Origin: a virus
Length of the DNA: 21,765 nt
Direction: 5' to 3' (one strand)
Virus record (IMG/VR): IMGVR_UViG_3300027911_000074
Span: 1-21,765 of that record
Below, piece after piece: positions 38-21,327 of this stretch. The position numbers and the translations under genes were made by a program. Every line of letters begins with the position of its first letter. Positions within the stretch are counted from its first letter, which is position 1. The notes under the pieces were generated by a model. It was not told where the DNA came from. It was given only the letters and a program-made list of their open reading frames with translations, and made no database searches.

Positions 38-301
38 CTAAGCATATTTAGTCATTGAAGTTATGCGATCCACAATAGCCTGGGGAACACGCACAATTAC
101 TTCAGCTTCCCGTATGTATTTAACGTCGTACCAGAATTTCAATTTGAAACGTTTTCCCCAATTAGGTTCAGTTGTCTCTCTTACAATTTCAACCACTTGT
201 CTTTCATTGGAGTTGAATTGCCGGGTTGGGCGAGTCCACAAAGCGCCTATTGCTAAATTGTGGTCAGAACCAATAACTTGTATCTGGTCTTTACGCTGCA
301 T
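38..301 (-). CDS. conserved-looking hypothetical protein, 87 aa
   Basis: This is a small protein I do not recognise. It is rich in basic and aromatic residues in the middle (FKLKFWYDVKY) with a hydrophobic, Val/Ile-rich C-terminal third, and no cysteine cluster, signal peptide or membrane segment. The start ATG overlaps the end of the upstream 2H-phosphoesterase gene by 11 nt. An AGG about 5 nt before it can serve as SD, so the two are probably translationally coupled and co-transcribed. Function unknown; the context only says that it follows the putative internal head protein. Confidence 0.7.
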   Translation of the reverse strand: MQRKDQIQVIGSDHNLAIGALWTRPTRQFNSNERQVVEIVRETTEPNWGKRFKLKFWYDVKYIREAEVIVRVPQAIVDRITSMTKYA

Positions 302-1193
302 TTGCCTGTACGTACCTAGATTTTTTGAAACGTCGAGTTACATCCAATAGATCACCAATAGGCAAATTGACTCTATAAGCTTCTATCGCCCGGTAAGGAT
401 CACGATTCAGGATCGCCAACCAGCGGTGGTGACCATCCAGGATGTAATTGTCTTTGGAAATGATAACTGGTTTGTTTAGTGCTGGATGGGGTTCTCTGGT
501 CGAAAGGGTCTCGACTTTTTTCAAATTGATTTCGCTTTGAACCGACCGCAGGAGAGCGACCTGGACATCCATGAACTGGACAAAAATGCCCTGTGCTTCC
601 AACCAATCGATGAAAGCTAACTTGTCGGCTTCTGATATTTGCGGCATCTCTTCTCTCGGAACGTTGAGATGGTTCTGAGGAATGTAAATGCTAGGGACTT
701 CTTCAGTTTCTTCTTGTACGGAATTGATTGCTGCCCAGCCATCAATCATCGGGCGACATTGTTCTTGATCGAGTACTAGGAAACTAGGAGGAGGCTTTAA
801 TTCGGTCGGGTCGAACCATTCGCCCATGTTGTATGAGATACTGACATGCGGAATGAATCGAGGCCACTTACTGCGACCTCCCATGTTCATGGCTCTTTGC
901 CATTGCACCACTACCGGATCAGATTTGAATTCTACGACGAGAACATTGTTTAAAATGTTGATCTTGTACGACGCCGGATTGACCATCACAGGCGTGTTAT
1001 CAGGTACATAGCCAGGAATCGAGACTTCCGAGCAGACCACCGTACAATGAAGTTCGTTTGAGGAGACTGGGTTAGGGATGCGGTTTTCTTGCATCCAAAG
1101 GCTCATAAATTCTGCACTTTGAGCATTGAGCTTGCGATAGGAGTAAAGCCCGGTGTCAACGCTCTCGGCAATAAATTGTGCGTAAGTCTTCAA
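291..1193 (-). CDS. 2H phosphoesterase / ParB-like fusion with capsid-targeting N-terminus
   Basis: 300 aa in three parts. Residues 1-11 (MKTYAQFIAES) are almost the same as the capsid-targeting sequence of T4 internal proteins (MKTYQEFIAEA). They include an I-A-E site after which the T4-type prohead protease would cut (Glu10). Residues about 45-125 carry paired 2H-phosphoesterase motifs, H49-C-T51 and H116-V-S118, the fold used by the anti-CBASS nuclease Acb1 (T4 57B) and by RNA ligase-like 2',5' phosphodiesterases. Residues about 205-285 end in a ParB/sulfiredoxin-like motif, LDGHHR (252-257). The start is TTG at 1193. The frame extends upstream without ATG or GTG, but the targeting-sequence match fixes this start. 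Inference: a head-packaged, injected enzyme acting on cyclic nucleotides or RNA ends. Substrate unknown; DNA processing through the ParB-like part is also possible. Confidence 0.85.
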   Translation of the reverse strand: MKTYAQFIAESVDTGLYSYRKLNAQSAEFMSLWMQENRIPNPVSSNELHCTVVCSEVSIPGYVPDNTPVMVNPASYKINILNNVLVVEFKSDPVVVQWQRAMNMGGRSKWPRFIPHVSISYNMGEWFDPTELKPPPSFLVLDQEQCRPMIDGWAAINSVQEETEEVPSIYIPQNHLNVPREEMPQISEADKLAFIDWLEAQGIFVQFMDVQVALLRSVQSEINLKKVETLSTREPHPALNKPVIISKDNYILDGHHRWLAILNRDPYRAIEAYRVNLPIGDLLDVTRRFKKSRYVQANAA

Positions 1194-1212
1194 TTTGAAA
1201 TAGGCCCCAACA

Positions 1213-1220
1213 TATTTATC
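1213..1220 (-). promoter_or_regulatory. T4-late-promoter-like box (GATAAATA)
   Basis: The minus strand reads GATAAATA, 7 of 8 matches to the T4 late consensus TATAAATA. It ends 19 nt before the TTG start of the putative internal head protein, leaving room for a short leader and a weak GGGG SD. A late promoter would fit a head-packaged product. An 8-mer with one mismatch is weak evidence alone, and no late sigma factor is visible in the window. Confidence 0.35.
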
Positions 1221-1253
1221 GAGACCGTTTTTCCTTTCTTTAATCTACTACCT

Positions 1254-9983: not shown

Positions 9984-10701
9984 GTTCCAACGAACCATCT
10001 TCAATTTCGACCACCGCACTTAACGATTCAATCCAGTCCCCACAGTTTACGTATTCAATTCCATCTTCCATATTGATGACTGCATTATGAATGTGCCCGG
10101 TGATAGCGCCGTAGCATTTTTTATGGCGGGCGTACTGAGTGACCGCAGTCTCAAAACTTTTGATTGCTGACAGCGCACGCTTCGTCTTCTTTTTTAGAAA
10201 AGCGGCTAGGGACCAATATCGTTTGAAACCCATTGCCATTCGGGTATGATGCAGGACCGAACTTAGCATGACAATACGGTCGTAAAGATGGCTCCCCAAA
10301 ATCGTAAGCCACTTAGGAACAAAATCAAAAACATCACCATGAAGAATGACGTATTTGTGGCTGGATGATGTCGTATAAAATGCTTCATCGACAATCTCAA
10401 TTTCGTCGCCAAAATTTAACGGGATGAAATGTCGGATTGGGTCATCGTGATTCCCGATGATGTAAGTGATCTTTGTCCCAAACTTCGCCATCTTTAACAG
10501 CCGCCGCAGGACCGCTGTACAATCTGGATTCCACCAGATTTTGTTCTTCATGGCGAACATGTCGAAGATGTCGCCTACCAGATACAGATGATCACATTCA
10601 ATCGATTTCAAAAACGAAAGTAACTGCTTCGCCTTACAACCTCGGAACCCCAAATGAAAGTCCGAAAGAAATACTGCTCGGTAGTGCGTTCGTTGTTTCA
10701 T
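9922..10701 (-). CDS. LpxH-like metallophosphoesterase
   Basis: 259 aa. All calcineurin-like metal motifs are present: D14-F-H16 (SDFHLG), GDIFD (D44), GNHDD (84-86), H121-G-D, and GHIH (202-205), followed by YVNCGDWIES, which is typical of the UDP-2,3-diacylglucosamine pyrophosphatase (LpxH) branch. LpxH hydrolyses a lipid A precursor in Gram-negative bacteria. A phage copy might alter lipid A synthesis or act on another pyrophosphate. A basic Lys-rich helix pair (about 165-185) may contact the membrane. Start is the ATG at 10701, overlapping the Nudix stop as ATGA. A longer frame to 10752 would lie inside the Nudix gene. Its 3' end overlaps the HAD gene on the other strand. Confidence 0.88.
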   Translation of the reverse strand: MKQRTHYRAVFLSDFHLGFRGCKAKQLLSFLKSIECDHLYLVGDIFDMFAMKNKIWWNPDCTAVLRRLLKMAKFGTKITYIIGNHDDPIRHFIPLNFGDEIEIVDEAFYTTSSSHKYVILHGDVFDFVPKWLTILGSHLYDRIVMLSSVLHHTRMAMGFKRYWSLAAFLKKKTKRALSAIKSFETAVTQYARHKKCYGAITGHIHNAVINMEDGIEYVNCGDWIESLSAVVEIEDGSLELIHWHDMTKEGIEDPIVLAA

Positions 10702-11138
10702 TGGTCGTGGAGTATCTCCCAAATCTGTTTCTGGCTCTCGTACAACAAACATAACAGCCCTTTATGAAACTGATATGAACGATTGTCTACCATTTCATAA
10801 AGTTGGTCGTAGGACACCCATTCGATGAAGCTGGTTTCCATGGCAAATTCAGGATCGGTCGGAGCCATCGTAAAAGGCTCTGGGACGATTCCCAAGAAGT
10901 TCTGGTAGGTGAACCCCGGAACCCGGTATTTGAGGGCGTGGCGAAGCTCTATTGGGCCGTCGTAGCCCATTTCTTCTTCGAGTTCGATCAGCGCATTCTC
11001 TTTGAAGCTTTTTCCGTCTTTCAACATGCCGCCGATGACGCCCCAACAATTTCCTTCTGGAATCTGCGGTGCCCGCCACGCTAGGCATATTTGCTTGGTA
11101 TTGTCTGCTAAGGGAAGTATTCCACTGGCTAGTTTCAT
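10698..11138 (-). CDS. Nudix hydrolase-like protein with altered box
   Basis: 146 aa. The Nudix box lies at about 36-59. The glycine pair and the IELEEEMG core keep the metal-binding glutamates, but the first conserved Glu is Lys43 and the conserved Arg of the R-E pair is Ile. The fold is otherwise typical, with an N-terminal strand (LASGILPLADN) and a C-terminal substrate strand (FIEWVSYDQL). Nudix enzymes hydrolyse nucleoside diphosphates linked to another group, such as ADP-ribose, NADH or caps. The altered box makes the activity uncertain. Starts and stops overlap both neighbours as ATGA, so it is part of the NAD-kinase operon. Confidence 0.85.
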   Translation of the reverse strand: MKLASGILPLADNTKQICLAWRAPQIPEGNCWGVIGGMLKDGKSFKENALIELEEEMGYDGPIELRHALKYRVPGFTYQNFLGIVPEPFTMAPTDPEFAMETSFIEWVSYDQLYEMVDNRSYQFHKGLLCLLYESQKQIWEILHDQ

Positions 11139-12038: not shown

Positions 12039-12253
12039 ACAAGATCTTTCGCATCCCGGTGAAGTGCGAGACAAGTTCCATCGGGATGGACCGCTACAAA
12101 TCGCTCGGTCGGATTGATGACGATCACCATAGCATTCTCGGAGACCACCAGAAACTTTTCATGGTTGTCTACTTCTCGAATGATCAGGCAAACTTCATCA
12201 TATCGATGAGCATCCTCTAACGCTTTGGCTTTGGCTTCGGTGTAAGTCATCAT
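12035..12253 (-). CDS. hypothetical protein, 72 aa
   Basis: Starts MMTYTEAKAKALEDAHRYDE, followed by repeated strand-like segments (VCLIIREVD, KFLVVSENAMVIVI, RFVAVHPDG). It looks like a small beta-sheet protein; no family recognised. The ATG at 12253 overlaps the NAD-kinase stop as ATGA, so its translation is coupled to NAD kinase. Confidence 0.7.
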   Translation of the reverse strand: MMTYTEAKAKALEDAHRYDEVCLIIREVDNHEKFLVVSENAMVIVINPTERFVAVHPDGTCLALHRDAKDLV

Positions 12254-13047
12254 ACGAGTTTGTACCCCCATCCTAGTTTCTTTTGTAAGATTTCGAAATA
12301 GCTCAGATCCGGGTTTACGACTTCAACAGAAGTTCCATCGAACTTGATGAGAGCGTCCTGTCCTTGCAGTCGATACCCTATCTGGCCGTCGATAGTCGCA
12401 AACAAATTGCAGTCGTCAGATTTCACTCTAAGCGTGATCGGTTCCGTTCCGTATCGAGCCGGGAGAATCAAAGGCCGTTGTGAAAGTCCCTGCGGGCAAA
12501 TCGGCGTCACGACAAAAAGTGAAATGCAGTTGGGATGAACGATAGGACCGTTCGCAGAGAGGTTGTAAGCTGTAGAGCCTGTCGGCGTCGAAACAATCAA
12601 GCCATCAGCCCGGTAATGGCATACAAGCTCATCTCCAGCGTAAAGGCTCAATTCGACTAAGCGGGCAAGACCGTCGCCAGTCGGAAAATCTTTGATTACA
12701 ACATCGTTCAAAGCTGTGAATTTTTTGTCGCCAATGGTGAGTTCCAACAGCTTACGGACAGTAGAAGTAAAATGACCTTCAAGAAAGGCGTCGATGGCTT
12801 GTCGGTAATTCTCTTTCGAGCACGACGTAAGAAATCCCAGGTGCCCGGTGTTGATGACGAAGATTGGATATTGATGTGCTTGACGAGATGCGCCTAGAAC
12901 GCTCCCATCTCCACCCAGGACGACAGTGAACCTGCATTCATCATCCCAAACTTCAACTAGCTCAATACCTTTTTCTGCAAAGTATTTAATGACATCGTAG
13001 TAAAAGAGAGCGGTTGATGTCTTTGCGAAAATGAAACCTTTTTTCAA
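12250..13047 (-). CDS. nadK: NAD kinase
   Basis: 265 aa. The family hallmarks are clear: GGDGS (45-49), NTGHLGF (66-72), the LNDV segment (113-116), and the long DGLIVSTPTGSTAYNLSANG block (148-167) that binds NAD and forms the nucleotide pocket. It phosphorylates NAD+ at the 2' hydroxyl with ATP to give NADP+. Shorter than E. coli NadK (292 aa) but with all motifs, so probably active. Start is TTG at 13047 with an AAGGA SD about 6 nt upstream; no in-frame ATG is nearer. It lies 22 nt after a tRNA gene and heads an overlapping operon that ends with the Nudix and LpxH-like genes. Confidence 0.95.
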   Translation of the reverse strand: MKKGFIFAKTSTALFYYDVIKYFAEKGIELVEVWDDECRFTVVLGGDGSVLGASRQAHQYPIFVINTGHLGFLTSCSKENYRQAIDAFLEGHFTSTVRKLLELTIGDKKFTALNDVVIKDFPTGDGLARLVELSLYAGDELVCHYRADGLIVSTPTGSTAYNLSANGPIVHPNCISLFVVTPICPQGLSQRPLILPARYGTEPITLRVKSDDCNLFATIDGQIGYRLQGQDALIKFDGTSVEVVNPDLSYFEILQKKLGWGYKLV

Positions 13048-17082: not shown

Positions 17083-17101
17083 GTAGACGTATCTAGGCCG
17101 T
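17076..17101 (-). repeat. 26-bp direct repeat, copy 2 (NAMPT end and promoter -35)
   Basis: Identical to 14411-14436. Here it covers the Thr-Ala-TAG end of the NAMPT gene and the TTGACA box of the following promoter. The flanks beyond the 26 bases differ. Confidence 0.85.
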
Positions 17102-18643
17102 TTTCATCCATTCGTCGGCACGTTCACGAATCTCTTCGAACGTGTCGGTATGGAGCATTTCACCGTTTCGTAGGATCGGGCGAAGCAGGTTACCTTCACG
17201 GTTTTCCTCACCCGGTTTCAACTGCTCCCAGGTAATCTTGGATTCACCAGTAACCGGATTCTGCTTGCGCAGGACAGCGAACCGACCACGCTTCGAATAC
17301 TTGCCGGGATCGGTAATCGGGTCCTTGTAGACAAGGCGTTCGTTGCCGTATTTGTCTTCGAGAGCCGACAGCTTTACGGCCATGTTCAATTCATCACGAG
17401 TGTGACCCTGTAACAGCGCTCCACCTTGACCGAAGGTAGCGATGTTATCAATCGACCAGCCCGCACCTTTCAATGCACGACCCATATCGTAGATCGCATC
17501 ATAGGTGTTTTTCTCACCCTGCAAAGCTTTGATCTTGCCCCTGTGTTCCGGCAGGCCCAGCATCTTGTAGCCCTTCGAATTCAGGTGGGTTCCGAACTTC
17601 TCACCAAGCAGCCAGAGGAATTTGAGCATGGTAGGAATCGGTTCACCGGAATCAGGACGACCGACAGTCAAACCATTACGATTGATGATGGTTTCACGAA
17701 AACGAGTACCCAGGATGTCCGATGCGAATTCCCATAGATTCTTCGAATCAGCGACGATGGAAATGATTCCAGTCGGGCATTTTTCAAAAACGCCTTCGAC
17801 TACATCGGCTTCGTATTCCAAACCTTTATGAGTCATGACGGAGTGCTCGGTTGCGCAGACTCCATTACACGGTAAGTAAGTCGGTTCACCGTGTTGGTCG
17901 AACTTTCCGTCGCCGTAAAATTCGTTGATGTAAGCGATGGACGGAATGTTGTCCGAAGACGAGAAGTGAACTAAGTGAGCCGCACCACCAGCCTCAGCAG
18001 ACTCGAAAGAAGACACGCCACGCAATCCGAAGTCGCAAAGCATGTATCGGATGGCTTCCGGCGTACCAGTCTCTTGTAGAGCCTGATAGAGCACTTTCTT
18101 GATGTGCTGGGAGTAAGTACCGACTGTCGTCGGTGCCCAGACGTGAAACATCGTCGGTTCAAGGAATCCCGGCAGCATCGAAACTTTGTGACCGAAGTTT
18201 TTGATGATTTTGCGCTGGCCGTTGATGATGTGATCCATGACCTTGTGAGTATTGAAGTAGGTCACAATCGGAGTGCGAACCGGAACGTTCAGACCTTCAG
18301 GCAAGGCCCAGACTTCGAGAGGCAGAATGCCATCCAATTCTCGTGCAATGAACATCCAGGCGTCATAATCATAGACGCCATCAAAGCCAAAAAACTCTTT
18401 GTAAAATCTGCGATCACTTTCGACCTGTTTGACTGTGATACGAGGTCCGGTGAATTCCTTCCAACACAAAGCCTGTGCTCCGAAAGGTGTGATGTCACCA
18501 AACTCTCCACCACGGCTTTCCATGTAATCGTACATCCACTTGATGCCGGGTTCATAGAATAAGTGATGGCTGATCTTGTAAGCGTCAGTGCGCCTCGTAA
18601 TACTTCGTTCGCTTGACCCTCTCGGGATGATAATGTTACTCAT
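17093..18643 (-). CDS. nadV: nicotinamide phosphoribosyltransferase (NAMPT)
   Basis: 516 aa, slightly longer than human NAMPT (491). Family signatures are TDAYKISHHLFY (19-30), DFGLRGVSS (204-212), the catalytic His in ATEHSVM (H267), VADSKNLW (298-304, D299), GRPDSGEP (328-335) that binds the phosphoribosyl group, GQGGALLQ (405-412), and KDPITDPGKYSKRGR near the end. It makes NMN from nicotinamide and PRPP, the first step of salvage from nicotinamide, which is the product left when TIR-type defence enzymes destroy NAD+. An AAGGAAA SD precedes the ATG. It overlaps the upstream small gene by 8 nt. It acts with the NMNAT-type proteins upstream. Confidence 0.96.
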   Translation of the reverse strand: MSNIIIPRGSSERSITRRTDAYKISHHLFYEPGIKWMYDYMESRGGEFGDITPFGAQALCWKEFTGPRITVKQVESDRRFYKEFFGFDGVYDYDAWMFIARELDGILPLEVWALPEGLNVPVRTPIVTYFNTHKVMDHIINGQRKIIKNFGHKVSMLPGFLEPTMFHVWAPTTVGTYSQHIKKVLYQALQETGTPEAIRYMLCDFGLRGVSSFESAEAGGAAHLVHFSSSDNIPSIAYINEFYGDGKFDQHGEPTYLPCNGVCATEHSVMTHKGLEYEADVVEGVFEKCPTGIISIVADSKNLWEFASDILGTRFRETIINRNGLTVGRPDSGEPIPTMLKFLWLLGEKFGTHLNSKGYKMLGLPEHRGKIKALQGEKNTYDAIYDMGRALKGAGWSIDNIATFGQGGALLQGHTRDELNMAVKLSALEDKYGNERLVYKDPITDPGKYSKRGRFAVLRKQNPVTGESKITWEQLKPGEENREGNLLRPILRNGEMLHTDTFEEIRERADEWMKTA

Positions 18644-18821: not shown

Positions 18822-18927
18822 GTCGTCTTCTTACCATCGCTTTCTTTACTGCTTTCATGTTAGCACGAGCGACCTTGAGATCGCAATGATACATCTTCAA
18901 ATAATCTTCAAGATGAAGATGCGGCAT
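18796..18927 (-). CDS. small basic hypothetical protein, 43 aa
   Basis: MPHLHLEDYLKMYHCDLKVA continuing to a very basic end (KKAMVRRRHAERRTKS). The frame is open up to 19047 but that part lies within the CinA/NMNAT gene. I choose the ATG at 18927, which overlaps that gene's end by 20 nt. An ATG at 18894 is an alternative. It may bind nucleic acid because of its charge. Reality as a gene is less certain than its neighbours. Confidence 0.45.
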   Translation of the reverse strand: MPHLHLEDYLKMYHCDLKVARANMKAVKKAMVRRRHAERRTKS

Positions 18928-20161
18928 CCTGCTGATGGCGGATTGCTGTAGACGAGACAGCCGACGTTCGCAGTGGATGAGTAATTGCCACAGAAAGCTG
19001 TTTAAACGATTCTGGAAATTCGTCCAGGCCGCTTTGAAAGACTCCATCTTTTTCCCTCCCGAAGATGATGAACTGCGTTCGCCTTTCGTTGAAGGTTTCC
19101 ATTACCGGATCTATCGGACCATACTTCTCATCAACAATCCGTTTCGCCGTATCGTAACCAACGACAAAGGTAGCGCCATAAAACAAATTTGCCTTTTCGA
19201 GAAACGTCGGCGCATTGGTAAGCCAGACTACCTGCTTTCCTCTGAAAGCTTTGATCCGATTCTCGATAGTAATGAAATCCAGGAGCGGCTTATCAACGTT
19301 CCGAATGCTTAGTTCAAATTCAGTTTTACCGGACCAATGTAGGGTCGATGCGTAATCGGCCATTTCGTAATGACCATCGTGGACCGGATTGAAACTGCCA
19401 GGGAGAATCAAACCAGAATGAACAGCATCTCTCCAGCCGCACCAATCTCGCCCGTTAACACTATCGACCAATACACCATTCACAACAACGATTCCAATGC
19501 GTTGGACGGAGCCATCGATCAATCCCGGCAGAAGAGAAGTTGCTTTGTGTAAAGTGGACTCAGTACGGATCGTATAAGCTTCCAATCCGGTTTCAACTCG
19601 TTCTTTGAGTCCGCAGGCTTCAGCTACCAAATTCAGCATCAGAAGTGATGTGGCATACTCTTCATTTTCACGAATAGTTTCCGCAGTCAATGCGGAGCAT
19701 CGAATGGGATTTGTCGGATCGAGCACCAATGAGAGCGAGACCGTTTTATTACCAGTCTGCAAAGCTGCATAGATGTAGTGGATGCGGCCAGCCCGTTCTT
19801 CTGGTGTCTTCTGCAAGGACACAGAACAAGCTACGCCGAAGAACGGAGGAGGCGCAGATTTGAAATATCGTCCATCATCAAATTTCGGTTCGCCTTTGAT
19901 GGCTTGGATGTAAGCAGCCATCGCTAATTGCCTCGTAGTTTGCTCACTAACGTACTTCTCAGGCTTGCCACCAAGAAGTTCATCGGTTCTGGTCTCTTTG
20001 TACGGAATTTGACCATCGAGCAGCGTAGCGGACCCGCCACCACGTCGGAGCAGCATCGGATAAATGTCGGTGCCACCACCAGTAGCAAAGATGACTCCCC
20101 GCTGCGGAGTAGCGTGAATGCGTTTGACCAATTCTTTGGTTGTGATTGATTCAGGAAACAT
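18908..20161 (-). CDS. CinA-C-like / nucleotidyltransferase (NMNAT-type) fusion
   Basis: 417 aa, two domains. Residues about 1-190 follow the CinA C-terminal (PncC) fold outline: ATGGGTDIYPMLLRRGGGSA (26-45), PYKETRTDELLG, VSEQTTRQLAMAA, and FFGVACSV. Residues about 248-410 are a nucleotidyltransferase with LPGSFNPVHDGH (253-264, the HxGH nucleotide-binding motif) and SSTAIR (403-408), both typical of NMN/NaMN adenylyltransferases. It could convert NMN to NAD+. In my rough alignment the PncC domain lacks the catalytic Ser and Lys of NMN deamidases (Phe25 and Thr59 there), so it may only bind nucleotide. Plant proteins with a similar domain pairing exist as far as I recall. It sits directly upstream of the NAMPT cluster. 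Confidence 0.85.
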   Translation of the reverse strand: MFPESITTKELVKRIHATPQRGVIFATGGGTDIYPMLLRRGGGSATLLDGQIPYKETRTDELLGGKPEKYVSEQTTRQLAMAAYIQAIKGEPKFDDGRYFKSAPPPFFGVACSVSLQKTPEERAGRIHYIYAALQTGNKTVSLSLVLDPTNPIRCSALTAETIRENEEYATSLLMLNLVAEACGLKERVETGLEAYTIRTESTLHKATSLLPGLIDGSVQRIGIVVVNGVLVDSVNGRDWCGWRDAVHSGLILPGSFNPVHDGHYEMADYASTLHWSGKTEFELSIRNVDKPLLDFITIENRIKAFRGKQVVWLTNAPTFLEKANLFYGATFVVGYDTAKRIVDEKYGPIDPVMETFNERRTQFIIFGREKDGVFQSGLDEFPESFKQLSVAITHPLRTSAVSSTAIRHQQDAASSS

Positions 20162-20372
20162 AATTTTTCACTCGTGTTATTGGTTGTAAAACGTTGGGGT
20201 TTGCTGGCTCGGGACTGTTTTCGAAACCATGCGAATTAAGCATACAATTCCAACAGCGACCGCTAATGTTATCTTGTGGTACACCTTCGGGACCATAATA
20301 ATCATTCGCAGGCGTACACATGTACTTCTTTTTGCAGTTGACACAGACTACCGGAAGATCGAGATCAAGCAT
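20151..20372 (-). CDS. small zinc-ribbon protein, 73 aa
   Basis: Two CxxC knuckles, C10-V-N-C13 and C40-W-N-C43, with an extra C19. A predicted zinc ribbon with a Pro/Asn-rich tail. It overlaps the NMNAT-Nudix gene end by 8 nt and the CinA fusion start by 11 nt, so it is embedded in the NAD operon. Function unknown; it may be a regulator or partner. Confidence 0.75.
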   Translation of the reverse strand: MLDLDLPVVCVNCKKKYMCTPANDYYGPEGVPQDNISGRCWNCMLNSHGFENSPEPANPNVLQPITRVKNYVS

Positions 20373-21327
20373 TGGAATATCCTTTGAATTTCAAAAGTTC
20401 ATGCAGCAAGTTGACGTGTTCGCCTTCCATATCTGCGTCCAAAATTGCTTCCAGATCCCACCACTGAATCATTCCGCCGTTTGCAAGATCGTCGCCCGCT
20501 TCAAGCTGATCGTCAGTACCCAGGAAATTGATTTCGAAAAAGGTAGTGATGATGCCATCCGGGTTGTCTCGGTAACGCCAGTCGTTGACGTTCATGCTGC
20601 AAATGTATAAAGGTTTCGTAAAAACTTCGTTGGGATTAACCCCTTTACGCAAAAGTTCCTCTCCACCTTCCCTGAGTACTGCGAACTCCAAAGAAACGTC
20701 ACCACGGTCCTTAAAACCACCAGCAAACCGCCATCCTCGCTCACCGGGCTTCTTCGCCAGGAGGTATTGGAGTTTTCCACGAAAAACACGGCTTACGGCG
20801 ATATCGACGGTCGGATAGTTGATCGGAAATTGTTTGTTCAGTCCGTAGATCACACCCCTACGAAAAAGTTCCATCGAATCGCATTCATCTGTTATCGGCC
20901 AGTACGGATTTTTGATGACGAAATTGCGGGATGTAACTTCGTGATAGAGAAAATTTGTTCTGGCAGTCAACCAATACAAAGGCGGCTGCGTCCGATCAGA
21001 GAAAAAATGAATGGCTTGAGGATTGTATTCGATGTAATGATCGGATAGCGTTTTGATTACAGCCTGTTCTAAGGTGTTAGTCTGATCCCAAAGATATTTC
21101 TTTTGGGTGACAGGCACGATAAGAACTTTTCCGATGAATCTATCTTCGATCATTTCCATTCGCATCGTAAAATCCAATGGAGCATTTTTACTGAACGGAA
21201 CACGATTTACTGGGAGAGTGATGATTGTGATGTTGTGATCTTTTAGAATGTCCCGAATCGTTTCCTCGTGATACCCTCGAAGGGAAGGCGTCTGAAACGG
21301 AGCGTAAATGACTGCAATGTTATTCAT
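20365..21327 (-). CDS. natV: NatV/NadM-like bifunctional NMN adenylyltransferase-Nudix protein
   Basis: 320 aa. Residues 1-110 follow the NMNAT outline: a first strand and loop with VIYAPFQTPSLRGYH (6-20, keeping one His of the usual HxGH), FSKNAPLDFTMRMEMI (45-60), matching the N-P...R...MI region, and VPVTQKK. Residues about 165-310 hold a Nudix domain with a GGF...REGGEE box (203-224) in which the first Glu is Asp210 and one residue is inserted. NatV of phage KVP40 has the same NMNAT-plus-Nudix order and works with NadV. The changed ATP-binding motif means NMNAT activity should not be assumed. It is the first complete gene of the NAD module and has a candidate near-leaderless promoter. Confidence 0.82.
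   Translation of the reverse strand: MNNIAVIYAPFQTPSLRGYHEETIRDILKDHNITIITLPVNRVPFSKNAPLDFTMRMEMIEDRFIGKVLIVPVTQKKYLWDQTNTLEQAVIKTLSDHYIEYNPQAIHFFSDRTQPPLYWLTARTNFLYHEVTSRNFVIKNPYWPITDECDSMELFRRGVIYGLNKQFPINYPTVDIAVSRVFRGKLQYLLAKKPGERGWRFAGGFKDRGDVSLEFAVLREGGEELLRKGVNPNEVFTKPLYICSMNVNDWRYRDNPDGIITTFFEINFLGTDDQLEAGDDLANGGMIQWWDLEAILDADMEGEHVNLLHELLKFKGYSNA

Follow-up and report, generated by a model that had tools for sequence, protein, structure and literature searches.

A phage Acb1-ParB-like fusion protein with a T4-type capsid-targeting peptide: a candidate injected anti-CBASS protein

Architecture and conservation of the acb1-ParBL gene

The analysed window, 21,765 nucleotides of an IMG/VR virus record (IMGVR_UViG_3300027911_000074, positions 1 to 21,765), carries on its minus strand a gene, acb1-ParBL, in which a short peptide resembling the capsid-targeting sequence (CTS) of phage T4 is followed by a 2H phosphoesterase domain of the Acb1 type, a flexible linker, and a ParB/sulfiredoxin-like module. 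The features of the locus are as follows:

291-1193, minus strand: whole gene (CTS-Acb1-linker-ParBL), 300 amino acids, TTG start; six-sequence ortholog alignment
1203-1226, minus strand: leader hairpin GGUCUCGAUA-AAUA-UGUUGGGGCC, 10 bp, MFE z -3.1; ortholog hairpins have different stem sequences
1213-1220, minus strand: late-promoter-like GATAAATA (T4 late consensus TATAAATA) across the upper stem and loop of the hairpin, laid out as in T4 gene e
1164-1193, minus strand: putative capsid-targeting sequence MKTYAQFIAE, residues 1-10, with a predicted gp21 cut at E10/S11 (likeness to T4 ipII/ipIII; orthologs)
732-1154, minus strand: Acb1 2H phosphoesterase domain, residues 14-154 (Pfam and structure matches)
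1041-1049, minus strand: first catalytic motif, H49-C50-T51 (T4 H44/T46; alignment with T4 gp57B and orthologs)
840-848, minus strand: second catalytic motif, H116-V117-S118 (T4 H113/T115; same alignment)
735-755, minus strand: ligand-lid stretch R147-P-M-I-D-G-W153, with R147 at T4 E141 and W153 at T4 W147 (alignment)
675-731, minus strand: flexible linker, residues 155-173 (mean pLDDT 57-61 across residues 151-170)
306-674, minus strand: ParB/sulfiredoxin-like module, residues 174-296 (profile and fold matches)
423-440, minus strand: LDGHHR motif, residues 252-257 (32 aligned sequences all keep D, G, the first H and R)

Pfam Acb1, phrog_2859 and VIA fold matches confirmed the fusion of a 2H domain to a ParB/Srx-like domain that a sequence-only reading had proposed at 291-1193. 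A profile scan of viral contigs recovered the same fusion in five more non-identical sequences on independent contigs, a recurrence that rules out an assembly artefact. Beside the gene lies a GIY-YIG/NUMOD3 homing endonuclease (1647-2360), missing at the same place in contig L208. The window also encodes a set of NAD-metabolism proteins, namely NAMPT (17093-18643), an NMNAT-like nucleotidyltransferase-domain protein (18908-20161), NAD kinase (12250-13047), and two Nudix proteins (10698-11138 and 20365-21327), resembling phage NAD+ reconstitution against NAD-depleting defences.

The first domain is an Acb1. Residues 14-154 score 69 bits with Pfam Acb1 (PF23474; cutoff 27; E=4.6e-19), and an ortholog (L208/L218) reaches 85 bits. 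AlphaFold2, given orthologs and partial relatives, produced a model with a mean pLDDT of 88, whose residues 14-157 superpose on 7t27, the Acb1-cGAMP structure, with Z 19.0 and rmsd 1.9 over 135 residues (VIA); LigT-type enzymes reach a Z of only about 11. Superposition on 2H enzymes, named beforehand as the point on which the 2H assignment would turn, was thus observed, and the suspected kinship to anti-CBASS Acb1 is borne out. The two H-x-T/S motifs are H49-C-T51 and H116-V-S118; every ortholog keeps the two histidines, and the second motif ends in Ser or Thr among them (Ser118 here).

The catalytic residues of T4 Acb1, the adenine contact of E141, and the role of W147 in the lid have been described previously (Hobbs 2022, PMC9117128). 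The Glu141 column is a specificity determinant and not a catalytic residue; it is occupied by R147 here and by Lys or Arg in the orthologs, and a basic residue at this position suggests a base preference unlike that of T4 Acb1. As E141 is not conserved, the protein may not cleave the usual CBASS signals. Among the orthologs, the counterpart of the T4 lid Trp147 (W153) was found in the window protein and L218 only.

The C-terminal half matches phrog_2859 (E=3.8e-28), and residues 183-298 of the model resemble Noc, ParB, and Srx at a Z of about 7, which lies under the tool's safe level (VIA). Viral models annotated as ParB/Sulfiredoxin domain protein match this second domain at E 5e-12 (BFVD), and the ParBc_2 and SerK (free serine kinase) profiles match it weakly. 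LDGHHR, taken earlier as a ParB/sulfiredoxin-like motif, does sit within such a module, whose core DGH.R is invariant across 32 relatives. The suggestion that cleavage might be coupled to DNA binding found no support: profile search and model gave no helix-turn-helix (HTH) match anywhere in the protein, the chain ends directly after the ParB-like fold, and in L218 LDGHHR is degraded to LDEHLR, with about 30 residues missing and the catalytic Acb1 residues retained. A DNA-binding ParB is ruled out, as the HTH of canonical ParB is missing. The catalytic cysteine of sulfiredoxin sits in an FGGCHR motif, and the His in its place in LDGHHR rules out a sulfiredoxin enzyme. Protein A domains, which also came up in the profile search with the ParB-like alignment, were rejected as a three-helix artefact of repeats. 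Most likely, the module has an accessory role in binding nucleotides or a partner, like its kind in phage virion effectors. In other contigs, the same module is joined to a nucleotidyltransferase plus a zeta-toxin/kinase domain (L031:3353-5896) or to a HAD-like region (L007, L012).

All five non-identical orthologs (L213, L214, L215, L217, and L218; L216 is identical to L215, and L218 lies on the same contig as L208) carry the Acb1 domain, the ParB-like domain, and the N-terminal peptide. Where dS was unsaturated, dN/dS was 0.05-0.18 for Acb1 and 0.08-0.13 for the ParB-like domain; both are under purifying selection. The two modules probably recombine, because L213 and L214 share 95% identity in Acb1 and 69% in the ParB-like domain. 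The ortholog alignment found no relative in a search across bacterial and archaeal genomes, and a UvsX-based scan returned one contig with an identical UvsX (L207), which stops before the acb1-ParBL gene. Among some 1,200 phage records with an Acb1-like match to the domain, none spans 80% of the fusion protein.

N-terminal peptide and late-expression signals

Residues 1-11, MKTYAQFIAE/S, are identical at 8 of 11 positions to the start of T4 ipII/ipIII, MKTYQEFIAE/A. In T4, this peptide is a signal for entry into the prohead core, and gp21 cleaves it off; the T4 internal proteins are injected and act against defence systems (PMC9958956, PMC3012670, PMC12373910). The ortholog N-termini read MKTYLQFITES, MKTYLQFISES, VKTYMQFLTEN (from a GTG start), and MSKTYLQFVNED; M1, K2, T3, Y4, Q6, F7, and E10 are invariant in the six-sequence alignment, with KTYxQFxxE in 6/6 sequences. 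The P1' residues of the predicted cut site are N and D in L217 and L218, unlike A/S/G, which counts against the injection reading proposed below. Cleavage after E10 would leave S11-V-D-T-G-L-Y17, in which Y17 corresponds to Tyr12 of T4 Acb1, giving an N-terminus that would resemble that of T4 Acb1. An internal I-S-E/A at 186-189 was set aside as a second gp21 site, as the orthologs do not keep it.

A DNA pattern for MKT[FY]xxFIxE[AS], run on viral contigs, matched at least 120 stretches, with 131 ORFs among the matches listed; in 130 of these 131 the motif opens the reading frame, shortly after an in-frame stop, which makes at least 130 ORF starts. A scrambled control pattern of equal information content matched a single stretch. 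This contrast (1 versus at least 120), together with the orthologs, rules out a chance N-terminal resemblance. TAAATA lies within 60 nt upstream in 70 of 129 CTS-bearing ORFs listed, where 4.8 would be expected, and its reverse complement in 6. Recognised by eye and motif only, the payloads of the CTS-bearing ORFs listed (L087-L206) are unrelated to one another and include nucleotidyltransferase, ART-like, P-loop, kinase, HAD, and transglycosylase-like types. Related N-termini also begin further ORFs on the contig of L218 (MLTFSQFIAES, MLTFVQFIVEE), and the L217 genome has additional CTS-like starts (MKTFSAFLLEN, MNFQEFLTEN).

Upstream of the start codon, a late-promoter-like TAAATA lies in the leader hairpin of all six genes (6/6). 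In the orthologs it falls in or beside the loop, with z values of -3.9 (L213), -2.1 (L217), and -3.0 (L218); the L215 hairpin is weak (z -1.2). The T4 lysozyme gene e, used as a positive control, returned the same design of hairpin plus late motif. Early read-through mRNA of gene e folds into the hairpin and is untranslated, and late mRNA starting inside the hairpin is translated (PMC3014915). Because TAAATA and the leader hairpin match this design, we infer that acb1-ParBL is probably expressed late. Early-type genes, a helicase and an oxygenase, precede it on the same strand.

The genomes of the orthologs supply further context. In that of L217 (166.6 kb), TAAATA precedes 38 genes against 4.3 expected (9-fold enrichment), among them gp21, gp23, and a tail-tube-like gene; the most stable fold among these 38 is that of acb1-ParBL, and CTS-type ORFs account for two of the next three. 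Both this genome and that of L215 (64.9 kb) encode a prohead protease of the T4 type (PF03420; E 1e-33 in L217 and 1e-37 in L215) as well as gp23 (E 1e-141). PF03420 was not found in G001 and G002, both of which are incomplete fragments. Counting against the injection reading, gp21 and gp23 are absent from the window contig, a fragment without head genes. The capsid-targeting peptide, the gp21 site, and the late-expression signals, none of which figured in the sequence-only reading, point to packaging and injection.

Proposed role and alternative explanations

We consider it likely, from sequence features and their T4 counterparts, that the product is made late, packaged as an internal head protein by a T4-like phage, and injected, and that its Acb1 payload would degrade CBASS cyclic oligonucleotides at entry. 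Read-through mRNA from the early-type genes would fold the hairpin at the start site, and by analogy to T4 gene e the productive mRNA would start late, from the promoter within the hairpin. The MKTYAQFIAE helix, nearly identical to the T4 capsid-targeting sequence, would bring the protein into the prohead core, where a gp21-type protease such as that encoded in the relatives may cut after E10, leaving a product that begins just ahead of the Acb1 fold. The processed protein would then enter the next cell together with the injected DNA, and its Acb1 domain, with the fold and residues described above, could cut CBASS cyclic di- and trinucleotides from the first moment of infection by metal-free HxT/HxS catalysis. 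The accessory role of the ParB-like C-terminal module, binding a nucleotide or a partner, is the least certain step. Also counting against this reading are the TTG start codon and a mass of about 33 kDa, larger than that of the T4 internal proteins, though T4 Alt is larger still.

More tentatively, the pre-loaded nuclease, disarming immunity as the DNA enters, might through the Glu141 change be retuned to signals that T4 Acb1 handles poorly, and the ParB-like module might contribute a further function gated by nucleotides or act as a decoy for ParB-fold defence proteins.

An ordinary Acb1 acting where it is made, its late expression countering CBASS triggered by late phage products and its MKTY... 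peptide being a leftover or serving for prohead parking only, appears unlikely. T4 Acb1 does function without a CTS, and acb1 directly adjoins an internal-protein gene in T4 (ipI) and in Cronobacter phage Pet-CM3-4 (MKTYQEFMAEA...; L086:13592-14411, L259:289-980); such a neighbour is a plausible source of the CTS by fusion, and a peptide gained in this way may be unneeded. However, six diverged orthologs all keep KTYxQFxxE, with Glu always at P1, and the peptide is placed such that its removal would yield a T4-like N-terminus right before the fold; both points argue against this alternative.

We likewise doubt that the protein, once injected, would act as two effectors, its ParB-like domain either attacking host DNA or metabolites as an active NTPase, kinase, or nicking nuclease, or serving as a decoy for GmrS/DndB-type ParB-fold defence. 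Members of the ParB fold include NTPases and DNases (PMC5512222), bind CTP, ATP, or GTP (PMC12704722), and include the free serine kinase whose profile matches weakly here; T4 IP1-3 moreover target GmrSD, of which the GmrS part is ParB-like (PMC12373910). However, the loss of LDGHHR and about 30 residues in L218 indicates that activity of this domain is dispensable there.

RNA-end repair, with the 2H domain opening 2',3'-cyclic phosphates for a phage-encoded RNA ligase, is very improbable: LigT-type 2H folds match at Z 11 and the window encodes an RNA ligase (PF09414, 15291-15839), but the Acb1 match is far better (Z 19, Pfam Acb1 well over cutoff), the ligase gene lies 14 kb away with no shared operon, and late expression plus a packaging signal would go unexplained.

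The literature searched, with preprints and most subscription journals outside its scope, contained no packaged or injected anti-CBASS protein. Where a role of T4 internal proteins is proven, it is the inhibition of GmrSD restriction enzymes, and known Acb1s are regarded as made after infection; a CTS-bearing Acb1, if real, would join both themes, and second-messenger immunity would also be countered by material carried in the particle. The CTS motif combined with the late motif offers a cheap finder of injected effectors in environmental T4-like phages, and the many small genes that it marks, with enzyme-like payloads (ART, nucleotidyltransferase, kinase, HAD), form a catalogue of candidates.

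Comparison with known systems

With the Acb1 proteins of T4 (gp57B) and FBB1 (7t26, 7t27), the first domain shares the 2H fold, the HxT/HxS tetrad, the Pfam Acb1 family, the aromatic stacking residues (Y17, W110), and the lid tryptophan (W153). It differs from T4 Acb1 in overall sequence (about 27% identity) and in the replacement of E141 by R147, and T4 Acb1 has neither the N-terminal CTS nor the C-terminal ParB-like domain. Packaging would not be a general Acb1 trait, because a clear cleavable CTS is lacking in T4 57B and in most of 12 further Acb1s surveyed; a full CTS was found in 0/13 stand-alone Acb1s examined, the nearest being LKTFAQLVES of Cronobacter S13. The T4 Acb1 start, MMEFKDF, is faintly like that of ipI, MKTFKEF. 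Acb1/2H-domain sequences were also seen within longer ORFs (L219, L224, L231, and L233), in L233 behind a portal-like region.

The likeness to T4 IPI, IPII, and IPIII lies in the N-terminal capsid-targeting peptide with its gp21 site and, presumably, in late expression, injection, and an anti-defence role. Their payload is a small restriction inhibitor, whereas here it is much larger and a recognisable enzyme.

The pairing was not known to the earlier reading as a described system. Singly, 2H and ParB-type domains have already been described in virion-packaged polyvalent proteins, where 2H domains were proposed to destroy defence nucleotides (Iyer 2017, PMC5512222), which gives the idea a precedent, though not this exact protein. 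Polyvalent proteins with 2H or DdrB-like ParB domains share with the present fusion a combination of conflict domains and, as we infer here, packaging. In those proteins, however, 2H domains are found on MuF/portal proteins and ParB domains on large proteins, whereas here a T4-type cleavable targeting peptide would serve for packaging and the 2H domain is an Acb1. Finally, the ParB-like module shares with phrog_2859 modules of Aeromonas, Ackermannviridae-type, and LKA5/8P-type phages a 125-residue domain with invariant R, PQ, DGH, and RW. Some of these records are labelled virion-associated or structural, and elsewhere such modules stand alone or are carried on nucleotidyltransferase, HAD, or giant virion proteins, not on Acb1.
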